From NCBI GenBank assembly GCA_902602185.1, contig CACKPV010000003.1, positions 62,001-126,000 of the forward strand: a DNA stretch of 64,000 nt, written 5' to 3'. This DNA is from an uncultured SAR86 cluster bacterium (GTDB taxonomy: Bacteria; Pseudomonadota; Gammaproteobacteria; Magnimaribacterales; D2472). Positions 10,848 through 16,067 of this stretch are shown piece after piece. The notes below the pieces were generated by a model. That model searched no databases and was not told where the DNA came from. It saw nothing but the letters and a program-made list of their open reading frames with translations. Numbering within the stretch: the first letter of the stretch is position 1; each line of letters opens with the position of its first letter. A program made the translations under genes and the position numbers.

Positions 10848-11010
10848 AATATTATTAAAAAATTGTAAAGATACATTTTAAAACATCTATCTATAAAAAT
10901 CCGAAGAAAAAGCCACACTTTGTTACAAATATGTGACAAAGGAGAGTTTTTATTGTTTTAAATTATTGAAAAATGTAACTTAAAGATGCATTTTGATTTT
11001 GCACCATACT

Positions 11011-11041
11011 CCATGGTTAAAAAGGAGCCCATTTAACATGG
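11011..11041 (+). other. Long hairpin just upstream of the tandem riboswitch
   Basis: CCAT plus GTTAAA (11011-11021, one bulged G at 11015) pairs with TTTAACATGG (11032-11041) around a ten-base loop AAGGAGCCCA, giving a 10-bp stem. An alternative short pairing CCCAT/ATGGG uses the loop. It ends 12 nt before the first aptamer. It could be a 5' element of the leader or a terminator remnant; its role is unknown. Confidence 0.4.
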
Positions 11042-11053
11042 GTTAAAAGTTAG

Positions 11054-11107
11054 ATCGTTCATCTTCTTCGGAAGACGGAAGTAAACAGGAATGTTGAAGG
11101 AACGCGG
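11054..11107 (+). promoter_or_regulatory. glnA-type glutamine riboswitch, aptamer 1
   Basis: The conserved frame of the glnA RNA motif is visible. P1 pairs CGTTC (11056-11060) with GAACG (11100-11104). P2 is TCTTC/GAAGA closed by a C-TTCG-G tetraloop (11062-11075). The conserved strand CGGAAGTA follows (11076-11083). P3 pairs AACA with TGTT (11084-11087/11092-11095), and GAAGGAACGC closes (11096-11105). The glnA motif is established as a glutamine-binding riboswitch, reported mainly from cyanobacteria and marine metagenomes upstream of nitrogen genes. It precedes a second copy and the porin-glnK-amtB operon. Confidence 0.85.
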
Positions 11108-11127
11108 CGTTAACAGGAAAACGTAAA

Positions 11128-11188
11128 ATCGTTCATTCACTCTAAATGTAGCAGTGAACGGAAGTAGGCAGTAGCCGAAGGAACGCAA
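11128..11188 (+). promoter_or_regulatory. glnA-type glutamine riboswitch, aptamer 2
   Basis: This second aptamer lies 20 nt after the first. P1 again pairs CGTTC (11130-11134) with GAACG (11181-11185). P2 is TTCACT/AGTGAA (11136-11141/11153-11158) with an 11-base loop. The conserved strand CGGAAGTAGG follows, P3 is GGC/GCC (11167-11169/11174-11176), and CGAAGGAACGC closes. P2 and P3 differ completely in sequence from aptamer 1 while pairing is kept, which supports structure rather than simple duplication. Downstream, GCGTT at 11237-11241 is complementary to AACGC in this P1, a possible switching partner. Confidence 0.88.
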
Positions 11189-11251
11189 CCCGTTAAATTC
11201 AGTCGAGTTTGACTCTTGATCCTGCAGATAAAAGATGCGTTAAATTAATTA

Positions 11252-11295
11252 GAGCAAACTTTGTTTGCATAATTCTGTGTTGGCACAGTTTGTTC
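11252..11295 (+). promoter_or_regulatory. Candidate expression platform: mutually exclusive hairpins before the porin start
   Basis: GCAAAC (11254-11259) pairs with GTTTGC (11263-11268) in a tight hairpin, and CTGTG/CACAG (11275-11279/11284-11288) forms a second. Alternatively GAGCAAAC (11252-11259) pairs over eight positions (one G-U) with GTTTGTTC (11288-11295). The two folds exclude each other and end ten nt before the GGAG ribosome site of the porin gene, so they could control termination or ribosome access. This is inferred from complementarity only. Confidence 0.45.
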
Positions 11296-11314
11296 TGCTT
11301 TATTGGAGAAAATT

Positions 11315-11920
11315 ATGAAAAGATTTTTATTATTTTCATTAATTTCTGCTCTGACACTGCCATCTTTTGCAAGTGTTAGTGCGAATGTTACTTTTGCTAC
11401 AGACTATATCTGGAGGGGAATGACACAAACTGGTGGTGATCCAGCTGTTTCAGGTGGATTTGACTACGCAGCAGATTCTGGTTTTTATGCCGGTATCTGG
11501 GGTTCTAATGTTAATTTCAATATCGATGGTGCTGGTAGTGAATTAGATGTTTACTTTGGCTATGCTTTTGAAACCGAAGGTGGTCTGGGTGTTGATATTA
11601 ACTATGTTGACTTTACTTATCCTGGAGATTCGAGCCTTGATTTTCAAGAAATCGGAGTTGGGTTAAGTTATGGAGACTTTGGTTTTGGTTATTACTCTGG
11701 CCAAGATGGTGCTGCTGATTATATGGATTTCTCATATGGTTTGGGGGATTTTTCATTTTATTACGGTGACTATGATACCTATGGAACTAACTTTGCTTTA
11801 GGATATGGATTTGCTTGCGGATCTTATGATTGTGGATTAGCTTATACTGATTTTAGTTCTGATTCTGTTGATTTAATGGATGAAGATGCAGTTGTTTTTT
11901 CAGTATCAGCAAGTTTTTAA
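11315..11920 (+). CDS. TorF-family putative porin
   Basis: A 201-residue outer-membrane protein. It has a signal peptide ending PSFA-S and a barrel of alternating aromatic strands rich in YxGxYxxxD, starting with ANVTFATDYIWRGMTQTGGD, the hallmark of this family, and ending in a C-terminal Phe. Start ATG at 11315 is chosen over the in-frame TTG at 11303 because GGAG at 11305-11308 lies six nt before it. It is the first gene after the tandem glutamine riboswitch and is followed by glnK and amtB, an arrangement seen in other proteobacteria, so it is likely the outer-membrane route for ammonium or another small nitrogen source. The substrate is inference. Confidence 0.85.
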   Translation: MKRFLLFSLISALTLPSFASVSANVTFATDYIWRGMTQTGGDPAVSGGFDYAADSGFYAGIWGSNVNFNIDGAGSELDVYFGYAFETEGGLGVDINYVDFTYPGDSSLDFQEIGVGLSYGDFGFGYYSGQDGAADYMDFSYGLGDFSFYYGDYDTYGTNFALGYGFACGSYDCGLAYTDFSSDSVDLMDEDAVVFSVSASF

Positions 11921-11930
11921 ATAAATCTTA

Positions 11931-12269
11931 ATGAAATTAGTGACTGCAATTATTCAACCCTCGATGTTAATAAAGGTTAGAGAAGCTCTTGTTTCCAATG
12001 AGATAATTGGTCTTACAGTTACTCAAGTAAACGGGTATGGTCGACAAACTGGGCAAACTAAAGTTTACAAGGGTGCTGAATATAGAGTTGATACTCTGCC
12101 AAAAATTAAAATTGAATGTTTGGTTGATGATGCAGACTTAGATTTTGTAGTACAAACAATTACAAGTTCTGTCCATACAGGAAACTATGGGGACGGAAAA
12201 ATCTTTGTCACTAATATTGAGGAAATAAAAAGAATCAGAACCGGAGAAACTGGCTCTGATGCTATTTAA
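11931..12269 (+). CDS. glnK: Nitrogen regulatory PII protein (GlnK type)
   Basis: A 112-residue trimeric signalling protein that senses ATP/ADP and 2-oxoglutarate and, in the GlnK role, plugs AmtB. It begins MKLVTAIIQPSMLIKVREAL. The T-loop carries Gln39 and the uridylylation site Tyr51 (KVYKGAEYRVD), followed by the TGNYGDGKIFV B-loop and a C-terminal RIRTGETGSDAI. All main functional residues are present, so it should be regulated both by effectors and by GlnD. It is linked 14 nt before amtB, the conserved glnK-amtB pair, and lies 10 nt after the porin gene in the riboswitch-controlled operon. Confidence 0.96.
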   Translation: MKLVTAIIQPSMLIKVREALVSNEIIGLTVTQVNGYGRQTGQTKVYKGAEYRVDTLPKIKIECLVDDADLDFVVQTITSSVHTGNYGDGKIFVTNIEEIKRIRTGETGSDAI

Positions 12270-12283
12270 TTAAAGGAGAAAAA

Positions 12284-13534
12284 ATGGATTTTTTTGAAGT
12301 TCAATTTGCGTTAGACACCTTCTATGCCGTAATGGCTGGTGCACTTGTGATGTGGATGGCAGCTGGTTTTACTATGCTTGAAGCAGGAATGGTTCGTGCA
12401 AAAAATGCATCTGAGATTGTAACTAAGAATCTCGGGTTGTATTCAATAGCATGTATCATGTATTTAACATGTGGTTTTTACCTCATGTACTCATCAGGAG
12501 ATCATTTGAATGGACTCTTGCCAAAAATAGGTTCTCATTGGTCTCTTGCTGTACCTGAAGATACTGTTGCTGCAATGCAATATCAGGCTGAAGATGGTGT
12601 CGGATATTATGCTGAACAAGCAGATTTCTTTTTCCAAGTTGTCTTTGTTGCAACCGCAATGTCGATTGTTTCAGGTGCTGTTGCTGGAAGAATGAAAATG
12701 TTACCTTTCTTTCTATTTGCTGTTGTTTTAACTGGTTTCATTTATCCAATTCAAGGATATTGGAACTGGGGTGAAGGTTTCCTTAACCAAAATGGTTATT
12801 CTGACTATGCAGGTTCTGGAACTGTTCATCTATGTGGTGCTGCTGCTGCCCTAGCTGTGGTAACCGTTTTAGGTGCTCGAAATGGAAAGTATAATTCAGA
12901 TGGAAGTGCAAACTTAATTCCGGGTTCAAATATCCCTATGGCAGCATTGGGTGTATGGATTTTATGGCTGGGTTGGTTTGGATTTAATGGAGGATCTGAA
13001 CTTAAAGTATCTACTGGTGGCAGTGCAATTGCTGTTGCTCAAGTATTTATGAACACTAACCTAGCTGCTACTGGTGGTGTAGTCGCAACACTATTAACTA
13101 GTTTGATAAAAACCGGGAAAATGGATATTACCATGGCTATGAATGGTGCAATTGCAGGTCTTGTTGCTATTACGGCAGGACCAAGTGCTCCTTCAGGTGG
13201 TGAAGCAGTCATCATTGGTGCCGTTGGTGGTGTTATTGTTTATTTTTCAATCTTGTTTTTTGAAAGAACATTAAAGGTTGATGATCCCGTTGGAGCAATT
13301 TCAGCCCACGGAACAGTCGGAATTTATGGTGTCATGGTTGTCCCCCTTACCAGTGATGCTACTTTCGGCGCACAGCTTCTTGGTGTTGTTTTAATAGCAG
13401 GATTTACCTATGGCATGAGCTTGTTAACTATTTATGTAATTAACTTATTCATGCCAATTAGAGCAAGTGATACCGAACAAGAGGTAGGACTTGACTTAAC
13501 GGAGACAGGAGTAGAAGCCTACCCTGACTTTTAA
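12284..13534 (+). CDS. amtB: Ammonium transporter AmtB
   Basis: A 416-residue, eleven-helix inner-membrane ammonium channel/transporter. It has the N-terminal GFTMLEAGMVRAKNASEI, the pore twin-histidine pair in GTVHLCGAAAA (about residue 181) and ISAHGTVGIYG (about residue 341), and GVWILWLGWFGFNGGS between them. There is no N-terminal signal peptide, unlike E. coli AmtB, which is common in other lineages. It follows glnK by 14 nt behind an AAAGGAG ribosome site. Expression should follow the upstream glutamine riboswitch; activity should follow GlnK docking. Confidence 0.97.
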   Translation: MDFFEVQFALDTFYAVMAGALVMWMAAGFTMLEAGMVRAKNASEIVTKNLGLYSIACIMYLTCGFYLMYSSGDHLNGLLPKIGSHWSLAVPEDTVAAMQYQAEDGVGYYAEQADFFFQVVFVATAMSIVSGAVAGRMKMLPFFLFAVVLTGFIYPIQGYWNWGEGFLNQNGYSDYAGSGTVHLCGAAAALAVVTVLGARNGKYNSDGSANLIPGSNIPMAALGVWILWLGWFGFNGGSELKVSTGGSAIAVAQVFMNTNLAATGGVVATLLTSLIKTGKMDITMAMNGAIAGLVAITAGPSAPSGGEAVIIGAVGGVIVYFSILFFERTLKVDDPVGAISAHGTVGIYGVMVVPLTSDATFGAQLLGVVLIAGFTYGMSLLTIYVINLFMPIRASDTEQEVGLDLTETGVEAYPDF

Positions 13535-13621: not shown

Positions 13622-13843
13622 AAAAAAAAACAGAGCAAATGCTCTGTCTTTTCATTCGAGTTCCTCAGGTGTCTAAAGTGAGATTTCTCTTTAGCTCCTT
13701 GGATGCTATCTCTCCATCCTTGGTGGGTTATAAAGCTATTTTTTATCGTTAACTCTTTATAACGCTTTCACCCTGAGGGCTCTTCCTTCGCTTTCTCTCC
13801 AGTTCTCCGTCTGCAGTTGGTCCCTGGTCGGTCGTCGATAGGT
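13622..13843 (-). ncRNA. Structured small RNA gene of unknown family (RNA A)
   Basis: A non-coding stretch of about 220 nt with its own promoter and terminator, downstream of malate synthase on the same strand. Predicted helices nest as a multibranch fold: an outer 7-bp helix (13663-13669 with 13772-13778) encloses helices of 9 bp (13727-13735/13755-13763), 5 bp (13701-13705/13715-13719) and 6 bp (13673-13678/13689-13694). It ends with stem CAGAGC/GCTCTG, nine U and GUCUUUUU. It is visibly more GC-rich than its flanks and carries eight GGA trinucleotides, one within GAAGGAAGAG, also found in RNA B at 41.7 kb. I do not recognise it as RNase P, 6S, SRP, tmRNA or a known riboswitch. The short frame at 13757-13969 does not look coding. 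Confidence 0.72.
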
Positions 13844-13907: not shown

Positions 13908-16067
13908 TTAAGGGGTAGATTTTTTGGATTCCAAACGCCATTTATGAAGCAGAGGTTCTGTATATCCACTGGGCTGATTTGCTCCTTTTAAAGCTAAATC
14001 TAAAGAAGCTTGAAATGCAAAACCTGAAAAGTTTGAACCCATTTTTTGATAATTAGGGTCATCTTTATTTTGTTCATCAACGATCAAAGCCATTTCTTTA
14101 AAAATATCGATTATTTCCTCTTCTGAGCAAATACCATGATAAAGCCAATTTGAAATATGCTGACTTGAAATCCTGCAAGTTGCTCTATCCTCCATAAGAC
14201 CTACATTATTAATGTCTGGAACTTTTGAGCAGCCAATACCTTGATCAATCCATCTGACTACATACCCAAGAATCCCCTGCGCACTATTTGCTATCTCATT
14301 CCTTATTAAATCTTTATCTAATTCTTCTTTTAGGAGAGGTATTGTTAAGATCTTATCTATATCTGCTAATTGCCGAGAAGAAAGTTCATCTTGTCTAGTT
14401 AACACATCAACTTCATGGTAATGCATTGCATGAAGGGTTGCAGCTGTAGGTGATGGTACCCAAGCACATGTTGCACCAGATAATGGGTGAACTATTTTAT
14501 TCATTAACATTTCTTTCATTTCATCTGGCATTGCCCACATCCCTTTTCCAATTTGAGCTTTACCATTTAACCCGCAACTAATTCCAATATCTACATTCCA
14601 ATCTTCGTAAGCATTAATCCATGCTTGAGATTTCATCTCAGATTTAGGAACCATGGCACCTGCTTCCATGCTTGTATGGATTTCATCACCAGTTCTATCT
14701 AAGAAACCGGTATTTATAAAAATTATTCTTTCTTTAGCCTTTTCAATACAGGATTTAAGATTAATCGTAGTTCTTCTTTCCTCATCCATAATTCCGACTT
14801 TTACAGTATTCTTTTCTAAATTAAAAATCTGTTCAATAGCTTCAAATAAGTCACATGTGAAAGCAACCTCTTCGGAGCCATGCATTTTTGGCTTGACGAT
14901 ATACATACTTTTATTTTTTGAGTTCGATAATGTATTTAGGTTTTTCAAATCATATAGTGAAATACAAATTGTAAACATTGCATCTAAAATACCCTCATAT
15001 ACTTCATCACCATTTTCTAAAATTACTGATGGGTTTTGCATTAAATGTCCTACATTTCTAATAAGCAGAAGGCTTCTCCCAGGAAGAGAAAAAGTATTAC
15101 CTTCAATATCTTTATACTCTCTGTCATCTTTTAAAACTCGTGTTATTTGTTTTCCATTCTTTTTAAATGACTCGGAAAGATCACCCCTCATTAAACCTAA
15201 CCAATTTCTATAGGCAATTACCTTATCTTCTGCATCAACAGCAGCCACAGAATCCTCACAATCTTGAATTGTTGATACAGCAGACTCCAAAATAATATCT
15301 TTAATGTTAGCTTTATCACTCTTACCAACTGGATGATTTGGATCTATTTGAATTTCTACATGAAGTCTATTATTAACTAGGAGTATGCCAGATGGATTAT
15401 CAACATCTCCATTAAATCCTTTAAATTGTTTTTCATCTTCTAAATAAGTGTTTTGATTTTGCTCTGTACGAAAAAGCAATCTTTGATCTTTAATAGAAAT
15501 ATTCGCAATTTCTCCATAACTGAATTCCTTGAGTGGGAAACAGTCATCTAGAAATTGTTTTGAAAAATTAATAACCTTATCCCCTCTTATTTCATTATAT
15601 GGACCCTCTCTCGAAGCTCCTCCATCTTCTGAAATAACATTTGTTCCATAAAGAGCATCATAAAGACTTCCCCATCTTGCATTCGTTGCATTCAGGGCAA
15701 ATCTTGCATTCATAATCGGAACAACAAGCTGAGGACCTGGAATACTCGAGATTTCAGGGTCTGTATTATTAGTTGTAACTGTAAAGTCATCAGGTACTTC
15801 TTCGAGGTATCCTATCTCTTGTAAAAACTTTTTGTATTCATTTAAATCAAAATCATTATTCCTATGCCAAGAAGAAATGTGATCTTGTAACAAAGATCTT
15901 TTAACTAATAAATCTTTATTTCTTTGATGGAATTCCTTTAAAAGATCTTCAAACTTTTCCCAGAACTCATCTAATTTTAGATCAAGTCCTGGTAGCACCT
16001 CGTCTTTAAGAAACTTATCTAAAACAGAATGAATATTGAGACTTCCGCGTTTAATGTAGTTTTTCAT
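13908..16067 (-). CDS. glcB: Malate synthase G
   Basis: A glyoxylate-shunt and glycolate-pathway enzyme that condenses glyoxylate with acetyl-CoA to malate. At 719 residues it has the G-isoform length. Landmarks are ARFALNATNARWGSLYDALYG (about residues 120-140, partial), the VAAVDAEDKVIAYRNWLGL region, GSLLLIRNVGHLM-like RSLLLIRNVGHLM, MKSQAWINAYEDWN, IGKGMWAMPDEM and AWVPSPTAATLHAMHYHEV near the catalytic loop. No isocitrate lyase is in the window. It is followed by a thioesterase gene upstream on the same strand and by RNA A downstream; the RNA lies after the stop codon, so it is not a leader of this gene. Confidence 0.96.
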   Translation of the reverse strand: MKNYIKRGSLNIHSVLDKFLKDEVLPGLDLKLDEFWEKFEDLLKEFHQRNKDLLVKRSLLQDHISSWHRNNDFDLNEYKKFLQEIGYLEEVPDDFTVTTNNTDPEISSIPGPQLVVPIMNARFALNATNARWGSLYDALYGTNVISEDGGASREGPYNEIRGDKVINFSKQFLDDCFPLKEFSYGEIANISIKDQRLLFRTEQNQNTYLEDEKQFKGFNGDVDNPSGILLVNNRLHVEIQIDPNHPVGKSDKANIKDIILESAVSTIQDCEDSVAAVDAEDKVIAYRNWLGLMRGDLSESFKKNGKQITRVLKDDREYKDIEGNTFSLPGRSLLLIRNVGHLMQNPSVILENGDEVYEGILDAMFTICISLYDLKNLNTLSNSKNKSMYIVKPKMHGSEEVAFTCDLFEAIEQIFNLEKNTVKVGIMDEERRTTINLKSCIEKAKERIIFINTGFLDRTGDEIHTSMEAGAMVPKSEMKSQAWINAYEDWNVDIGISCGLNGKAQIGKGMWAMPDEMKEMLMNKIVHPLSGATCAWVPSPTAATLHAMHYHEVDVLTRQDELSSRQLADIDKILTIPLLKEELDKDLIRNEIANSAQGILGYVVRWIDQGIGCSKVPDINNVGLMEDRATCRISSQHISNWLYHGICSEEEIIDIFKEMALIVDEQNKDDPNYQKMGSNFSGFAFQASLDLALKGANQPSGYTEPLLHKWRLESKKSTP

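Follow-up and report, generated by a model that had tools for sequence, protein, structure and literature searches.

A tandem glutamine riboswitch leader ahead of porin-glnK-amtB in SAR86, probably part of a nitrogen-sensing RNA regulon

In the 64,000-nucleotide stretch of SAR86 DNA analysed here (the window), two glutamine-I riboswitch aptamers stand in tandem ahead of a porin-glnK-amtB operon. We consider it probable that this leader controls the operon by glutamine, most likely with glutamine as the OFF signal, and that it belongs to a regulon that is the main nitrogen sensor in two SAR86 lineages, here called genus g1 (that of the window) and family f2. The two aptamers would set porin-glnK-amtB expression by the glutamine level of the cell. 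Glutamine synthetase (glnA), porin-amtB and a TonB receptor operon would form a regulon under such riboswitches, which would act as the chief nitrogen sensor of lineages where PII, and in g1 also GlnD and sigma-54, is gone or nearly gone. SAR86 bacteria are numerous in surface seawater and mostly uncultured. The regulon bears on how streamlined marine bacteria that have no PII, GlnD or NtrC can sense their nitrogen status. The leader and the operon contain the following features.

10987..11003, + strand: 5' end of a conserved leader block (TGCATTTTGATTTTGCA), also present in front of this genome's glnA and in relatives
11003..11027, + strand: companion RNA element ACCAT-A-CTCC-ATGGT-TAAAAA-GGAG (ACCATACTCCATGGTTAAAAAGGAG), from pattern search and covariation
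11028..11042, + strand: hairpin CCCAT/ATGGG, from folding and relatives, among which its sequence varies
11054..11108, + strand: glutamine riboswitch aptamer 1 (RF01739, 61.9 bits)
11108..11123, + strand: hairpin CGTT-AACAGGAA-AACG in the inter-aptamer linker; relatives with long linkers (22-25 nt) have counterparts
11128..11189, + strand: glutamine riboswitch aptamer 2 (RF01739, 62.8 bits)
11192..11239, + strand: putative expression platform, a hairpin GTTAAATTC/GAGTTTGAC followed by conserved TCCTGCAG...ATGC, from an 18-row alignment and from consensus and window folds
11250..11296, + strand: predicted long hairpin right before the porin ribosome-binding site, with the terminator-like CTGTGTTGGCACAG-TTTGTT, from folding and a terminator-like scan
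11305..11308, + strand: ribosome-binding site GGAG of the porin gene, read from the sequence
11315..11920, + strand: TorF family putative outer-membrane porin (TIGR02001, 97.8 bits, cut-off 47)
11931..12269, + strand: glnK (PII), T-loop GAEYRVD with the Tyr kept (PF00543, 93.6 bits)
12284..13534, + strand: amtB, ammonium transporter of the 'marine subtype' (TIGR03644, 553 bits, cut-off 514)

Both aptamers match RF01739 along the whole model (positions 1-53 of 53 in cmscan; E 2.9e-11 for the first and 1.6e-11 for the second), well above the gathering score of 35 bits. This covariance-model search had been proposed together with the original prediction of the glnA-motif class, and it is significant for both copies. 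The predicted coordinates, 11054-11188, give the right location and end 1 nt short, as the second match runs to 11189. The glutamine-II model (RF01704) reached 16.6 bits against a threshold of 33, for aptamer 1 only. The two RF01739 matches are separated by 19 nt and the P1 helices by 25 nt. Inspection of the sequence together with the RF01739 matches confirmed the predicted tandem anatomy: the two copies share the same P1 (CGTTC/GAACG), CGGAAGTA and GAAGGAACGC, and P2 and P3 differ in sequence with pairing kept. Among 18 aligned related leaders, 3 of 3 consensus pairs in P3 and 4 of 4 in P2 change on both sides and still pair, so that the window aptamers form a three-helix junction of P1, P2 and P3 with compensatory change. 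P1 is invariant in this alignment and therefore uninformative for covariation, and neither the C that follows P1 nor the CGG within CGGAAGTA varies. In the crystal structure, C1:G59, G22 and C58 contact glutamine or close the bound state (PMC6698751), and G23 pairs with C60 in the ligand-bound aptamer (PMC5393176). These ligand-site nucleotides (C1:G59, G2:C58, G22 and G23-C60 in crystal numbering) are kept in both window copies as CGTTC..CGG..GAACGC. Both copies would be expected to bind glutamine, and their tandem arrangement may give a steeper response. A 38-nt segment of aptamer 2 (11130-11167, with its unusual long P2 loop) is identical to part of the first aptamer at two loci of another SAR86 family, where the riboswitches stand ahead of small-protein genes; judged by sequence, this hints at exchange among copies of the riboswitch.

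The source genome is a 1.09-Mb draft, 82% complete. As its 16S gene (RF00177) contains a perfect match to the SAR86-1245 probe site (PMC8701031), the gammaproteobacterial owner that had been predicted is SAR86. The probe site was found in 9 of the 10 genomes of the genus, in many of the family and in none of the sister families. RF01739 occurs in 50 of the 107 family genomes and in 95 of the 203 genomes of the order. A class sample of 369 genomes yielded four with RF01739, namely the window's own, two others of the order (one of them scoring below the RF01739 cut-off) and a single genome among about 365 from outside the order, where the riboswitch lies ahead of gltB and gltD. None of the 397 other genomes in a phylum sample contained RF01739. 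By sequence inspection, glutamine riboswitches head glutamate synthase genes at two loci: gltB and gltD at L241, from a gammaproteobacterium with a small genome that lies outside the order, and gltB at L207, from another SAR86 family. Scanning named genomes for a tandem pattern gave mostly chance matches; among the matches listed, a core-motif check left three real tandems, all in marine alphaproteobacteria, one of which is labelled SAR116. The SAR116 tandem copy lies directly ahead of that bacterium's own ammonium transporter and is an independent case. Of the other two, one is flanked by a glnK and a glnA-like gene, and one precedes an ATP-grasp-like gene.

Matches to TIGR02001, PF00543 and TIGR03644 place the tandem aptamers ahead of porin-glnK-amtB, as predicted. 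Just beyond the 3' end of amtB, convergent with the operon, lies an IMES-1 marine RNA (RF02034, 190.5 bits; 13647-13837, - strand), and malate synthase G (13908-16067, - strand) adjoins the operon on the opposite strand. Ammonium uptake had been thought to be controlled rather than glutamine synthetase. This opposition does not hold, because a third, single RF01739 copy lies directly ahead of glnA in the source genome, and most relatives in g1 have tandem copies there. The riboswitches are thus found in the 5' leaders of nitrogen-metabolism genes at both sites. The glnA of the source genome is short and type-II-like, and a close homologue matches the Pfam Gln-synt domains. In g1, porin-amtB is preceded by two or three aptamers and the TonB receptor operon by two. 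AmtB was found in 5 of the 10 genomes of the genus, and all four with a complete locus have two or three aptamers ahead of it. Family f2 has single or tandem copies ahead of glnA, and single copies ahead of a porin-amtB operon that lacks glnK. The aptamers are conserved among relatives whose porin and AmtB proteins are only 50-80% identical to those of the window. Riboswitch-led glnA proteins are 76-91% identical between g1 and f2. In one g1 genome, glnA is up to 89% identical to some f2 proteins, compared with 84-85% to its own genus; as it is nearer to f2 than to its own genus, this suggests that leader and glnA moved together.

Profile searches with positive E. coli controls found sigma-54 (RpoN, PF04552) and GlnD (PF08335) in 0 of 10 g1 genomes each, the one genus in which these two were sought. 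PII (PF00543) was found in 1 of the 10, the window's own genome, and its glnK is the sole PII gene found in the genus. In the order as a whole, 164 of 202 genomes have PII, and in f2 it was found in 0 of 21. As the genomes are drafts, these absences rest on groups of genomes. Within the order, only g1 and f2, the lineages without or nearly without PII, were found to have aptamers ahead of glnA and porin-amtB. This pattern represents two lineages and not 31 independent cases, and because of the probable lateral transfer between them, g1 and f2 are not fully independent. The riboswitch had been envisaged as a second layer over PII/AmtB control, which fits poorly with a genus that lacks PII in nine of ten genomes and GlnD and sigma-54 in all ten. 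With these proteins gone or nearly gone, the riboswitch is more likely the main nitrogen sensor. In enterobacteria, the PII/GlnD/NtrBC-sigma-54 cascade adjusts glnA and glnK-amtB to the glutamine status of the cell. The targets and the signal would be alike in SAR86, whereas the enterobacterial cascade is protein-based, and the sigma-54 and GlnD on which it relies were sought in g1 and not found. With its glnA, ammonium-uptake and TonB riboswitch regulon, PII-less SAR86 offers a direct test of whether RNA has replaced a protein cascade.

The leader also contains the companion element, upstream of the aptamers. Its pattern occurred at 13 sites in 41 genomes, each time just 5' of an RF01739 aptamer, with 0 expected by chance in the window, and some porin leaders contain it twice. 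Its helices are paired in 97.8% of alignment cells, with one pair per helix showing a compensatory change, and in two leaders one companion helix turns into an ordinary hairpin. The element may form an H-type pseudoknot (ACCAU:AUGGU and CUCC:GGAG) or two competing hairpins, and a search against Rfam gave no family up to E 5. Control by NtrC and sigma-54 through the palindrome ACCAT-N5-ATGGT was considered and rejected, as sigma-54 was not found in the genus; the spacing also differs from that of what we take to be the NtrC site. Tentatively, and with low probability, the companion (ACCAT-(A)-YTCC-ATGGT-TAAAAA-GGRG) could be a second, undescribed regulatory RNA that acts jointly with the glutamine aptamers, giving a composite two-input leader that replaces PII at SAR86 nitrogen genes. 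Such an RNA would perhaps be a small pseudoknot or two-state hairpin that senses another signal or binds a protein.

Downstream of the last aptamer, the putative platform reads CGTTAAA-n-YCGAGTTTRRYTTC...CTGCA...ATGCA, with GTTAAA and CGAGTTT invariant in the 18-row alignment. This conserved type is common to the glnA, TonB and g1 porin-amtB leaders, and among the leaders read it is found only in g1 and f2. The f2 porin-amtB operons have a glutamine aptamer with a platform unlike the glnA leader type. Under glutamine, the bound aptamers would hold the 3' strand of P1, the platform hairpin (11192-11213) would then form, and translation would start less often. In ten f2 glnA leaders, base-pairing is possible between the end of the platform and the ribosome-binding site (z -2.8 to -6.0), through helices that differ by genome (CUUCUAAA:UUUAGGAG, CUUCUAUAG:CUAUAGGAG and CUCCU:AGGAG). 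As the pairing is kept by way of different helices, it supports translational repression in these leaders. At the window leader, the same pairing was tried as the mechanism and discarded, being no better than in shuffled sequences (p 0.47). This leader has the extra long hairpin before the ribosome-binding site; folding of 11190-11330 gave z -2.16, and constrained folding with the aptamers forced or forbidden barely changed the predicted exposure of the ribosome-binding site (0.40 and 0.45). A sigma-70 scan of the leader gave nothing beyond chance, and no promoter was identified.

Glutamine could instead switch the operon off by transcription termination or through Rho, rather than at translation. 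The terminator-like stem CTGTGTTGGCACAG-TTTGTT (11275-11288) lies just 5' of the ribosome-binding site, the region has 3 terminator-like sites where 0.3 are expected, and in the f2 porin leaders a hairpin is followed by a T-rich stretch. However, the window stem has only 5 pairs, is predicted to fold within a longer hairpin and is outside the platform common to the glnA and TonB leaders, which makes termination unlikely.

As the genes led by these aptamers serve nitrogen assimilation, glutamine is likely to act as an OFF signal, a direction that the ability of the f2 glnA platform to pair with the ribosome-binding site supports. In cyanobacteria, those glutamine riboswitches that have been tested are switched on by glutamine (PMC6316151, PMC6698751), and the same aptamers could switch the window operon on, as at cyanobacterial gifB. 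Ammonium uptake and glutamine synthetase would then rise when glutamine is already high, and the leader type of the assimilation genes differs from the GCATCT:AGGAGATG type found with small proteins elsewhere in the order, so that we regard an ON switch here as quite unlikely. In most of those small-protein leaders, which belong to other SAR86 genera, GCATCT after P1 pairs with AGGAGATG at the ribosome-binding site. Ligand binding should weaken this hairpin, following an ON logic, because the same C pairs with G23 in the bound aptamer (PMC5393176). As the leader types differ, the assimilation-gene and small-protein groups may well have opposite logic. That the window copies are degenerate relics, aptamer-like and without function at the porin operon, is very improbable: their function is read from sequence, but the RF01739 scores, the covariation and the conservation ahead of porin-amtB despite diverged proteins all argue against decay.

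Tandem copies of the glnA motif and its association with ammonium-transporter, PII and glutamine-synthetase genes were reported in 2010 (PMC2864571), and 157 doublets and 4 triplets have been counted (PMC9481103). As these marine associations were already known, the window aptamers are ordinary new members of the glutamine-I class, like it in fold, conserved nucleotides, tandem arrangement and nitrogen-gene associations in cyanobacteria and marine metagenomes. A 2018 review restricted the class to cyanobacteria, with those gene associations seen only in uncultured environmental sequences (PMC6316151), a view that the SAR86 copies contradict. In a search that fell short of the whole literature, we found no paper naming SAR86 and the glutamine riboswitch together. 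Unlike glutamine-I riboswitches as known, those described here have a SAR86 owner, occur in lineages without or almost without PII and are set in a composite leader with an upstream companion and a platform common to three operon types. What is new is an owner, SAR86, for part of the unassigned marine glnA-motif DNA, the regulon, the lineage pattern, and the companion element and common platform.

In cyanobacteria, the DUF4278 domain is linked with glutamine-synthetase inactivation. The gifB/DUF4278 riboswitches there (types 1 and 2) share the ligand class with the window copies, but lead the glutamine-synthetase inactivator or its relatives as ON switches, whereas the window copies and the third copy of the genome lead uptake and synthesis genes and would act as OFF switches. 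In other SAR86 genera, three loci have tandem glutamine riboswitches ahead of DUF4278-like small proteins; against a cut-off of 25.3, one of these proteins scored 29.3 bits and another, slightly below, 23.0 bits. At ten further loci, including the two that share the 38-nt segment, tandem riboswitches lead basic proteins of 43-54 aa, several ending in FFPYYL or NPFYP and with no convincing family match; these are candidates for glutamine-synthetase inactivators. Six loci have a glutamine riboswitch ahead of a circularly permuted ATP-grasp/Alpha-E operon (family matches tested on one of them), together with a divergent gene resembling the Anbu peptidase. The ATP-grasp-like gene behind the alphaproteobacterial tandem copy at locus L110 resembles that of this operon. 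Anbu rises in nitrogen-limited P. putida (PMC5666114), and the riboswitch ahead of the ATP-grasp/Alpha-E operon ties an unexplained peptide system to nitrogen status.
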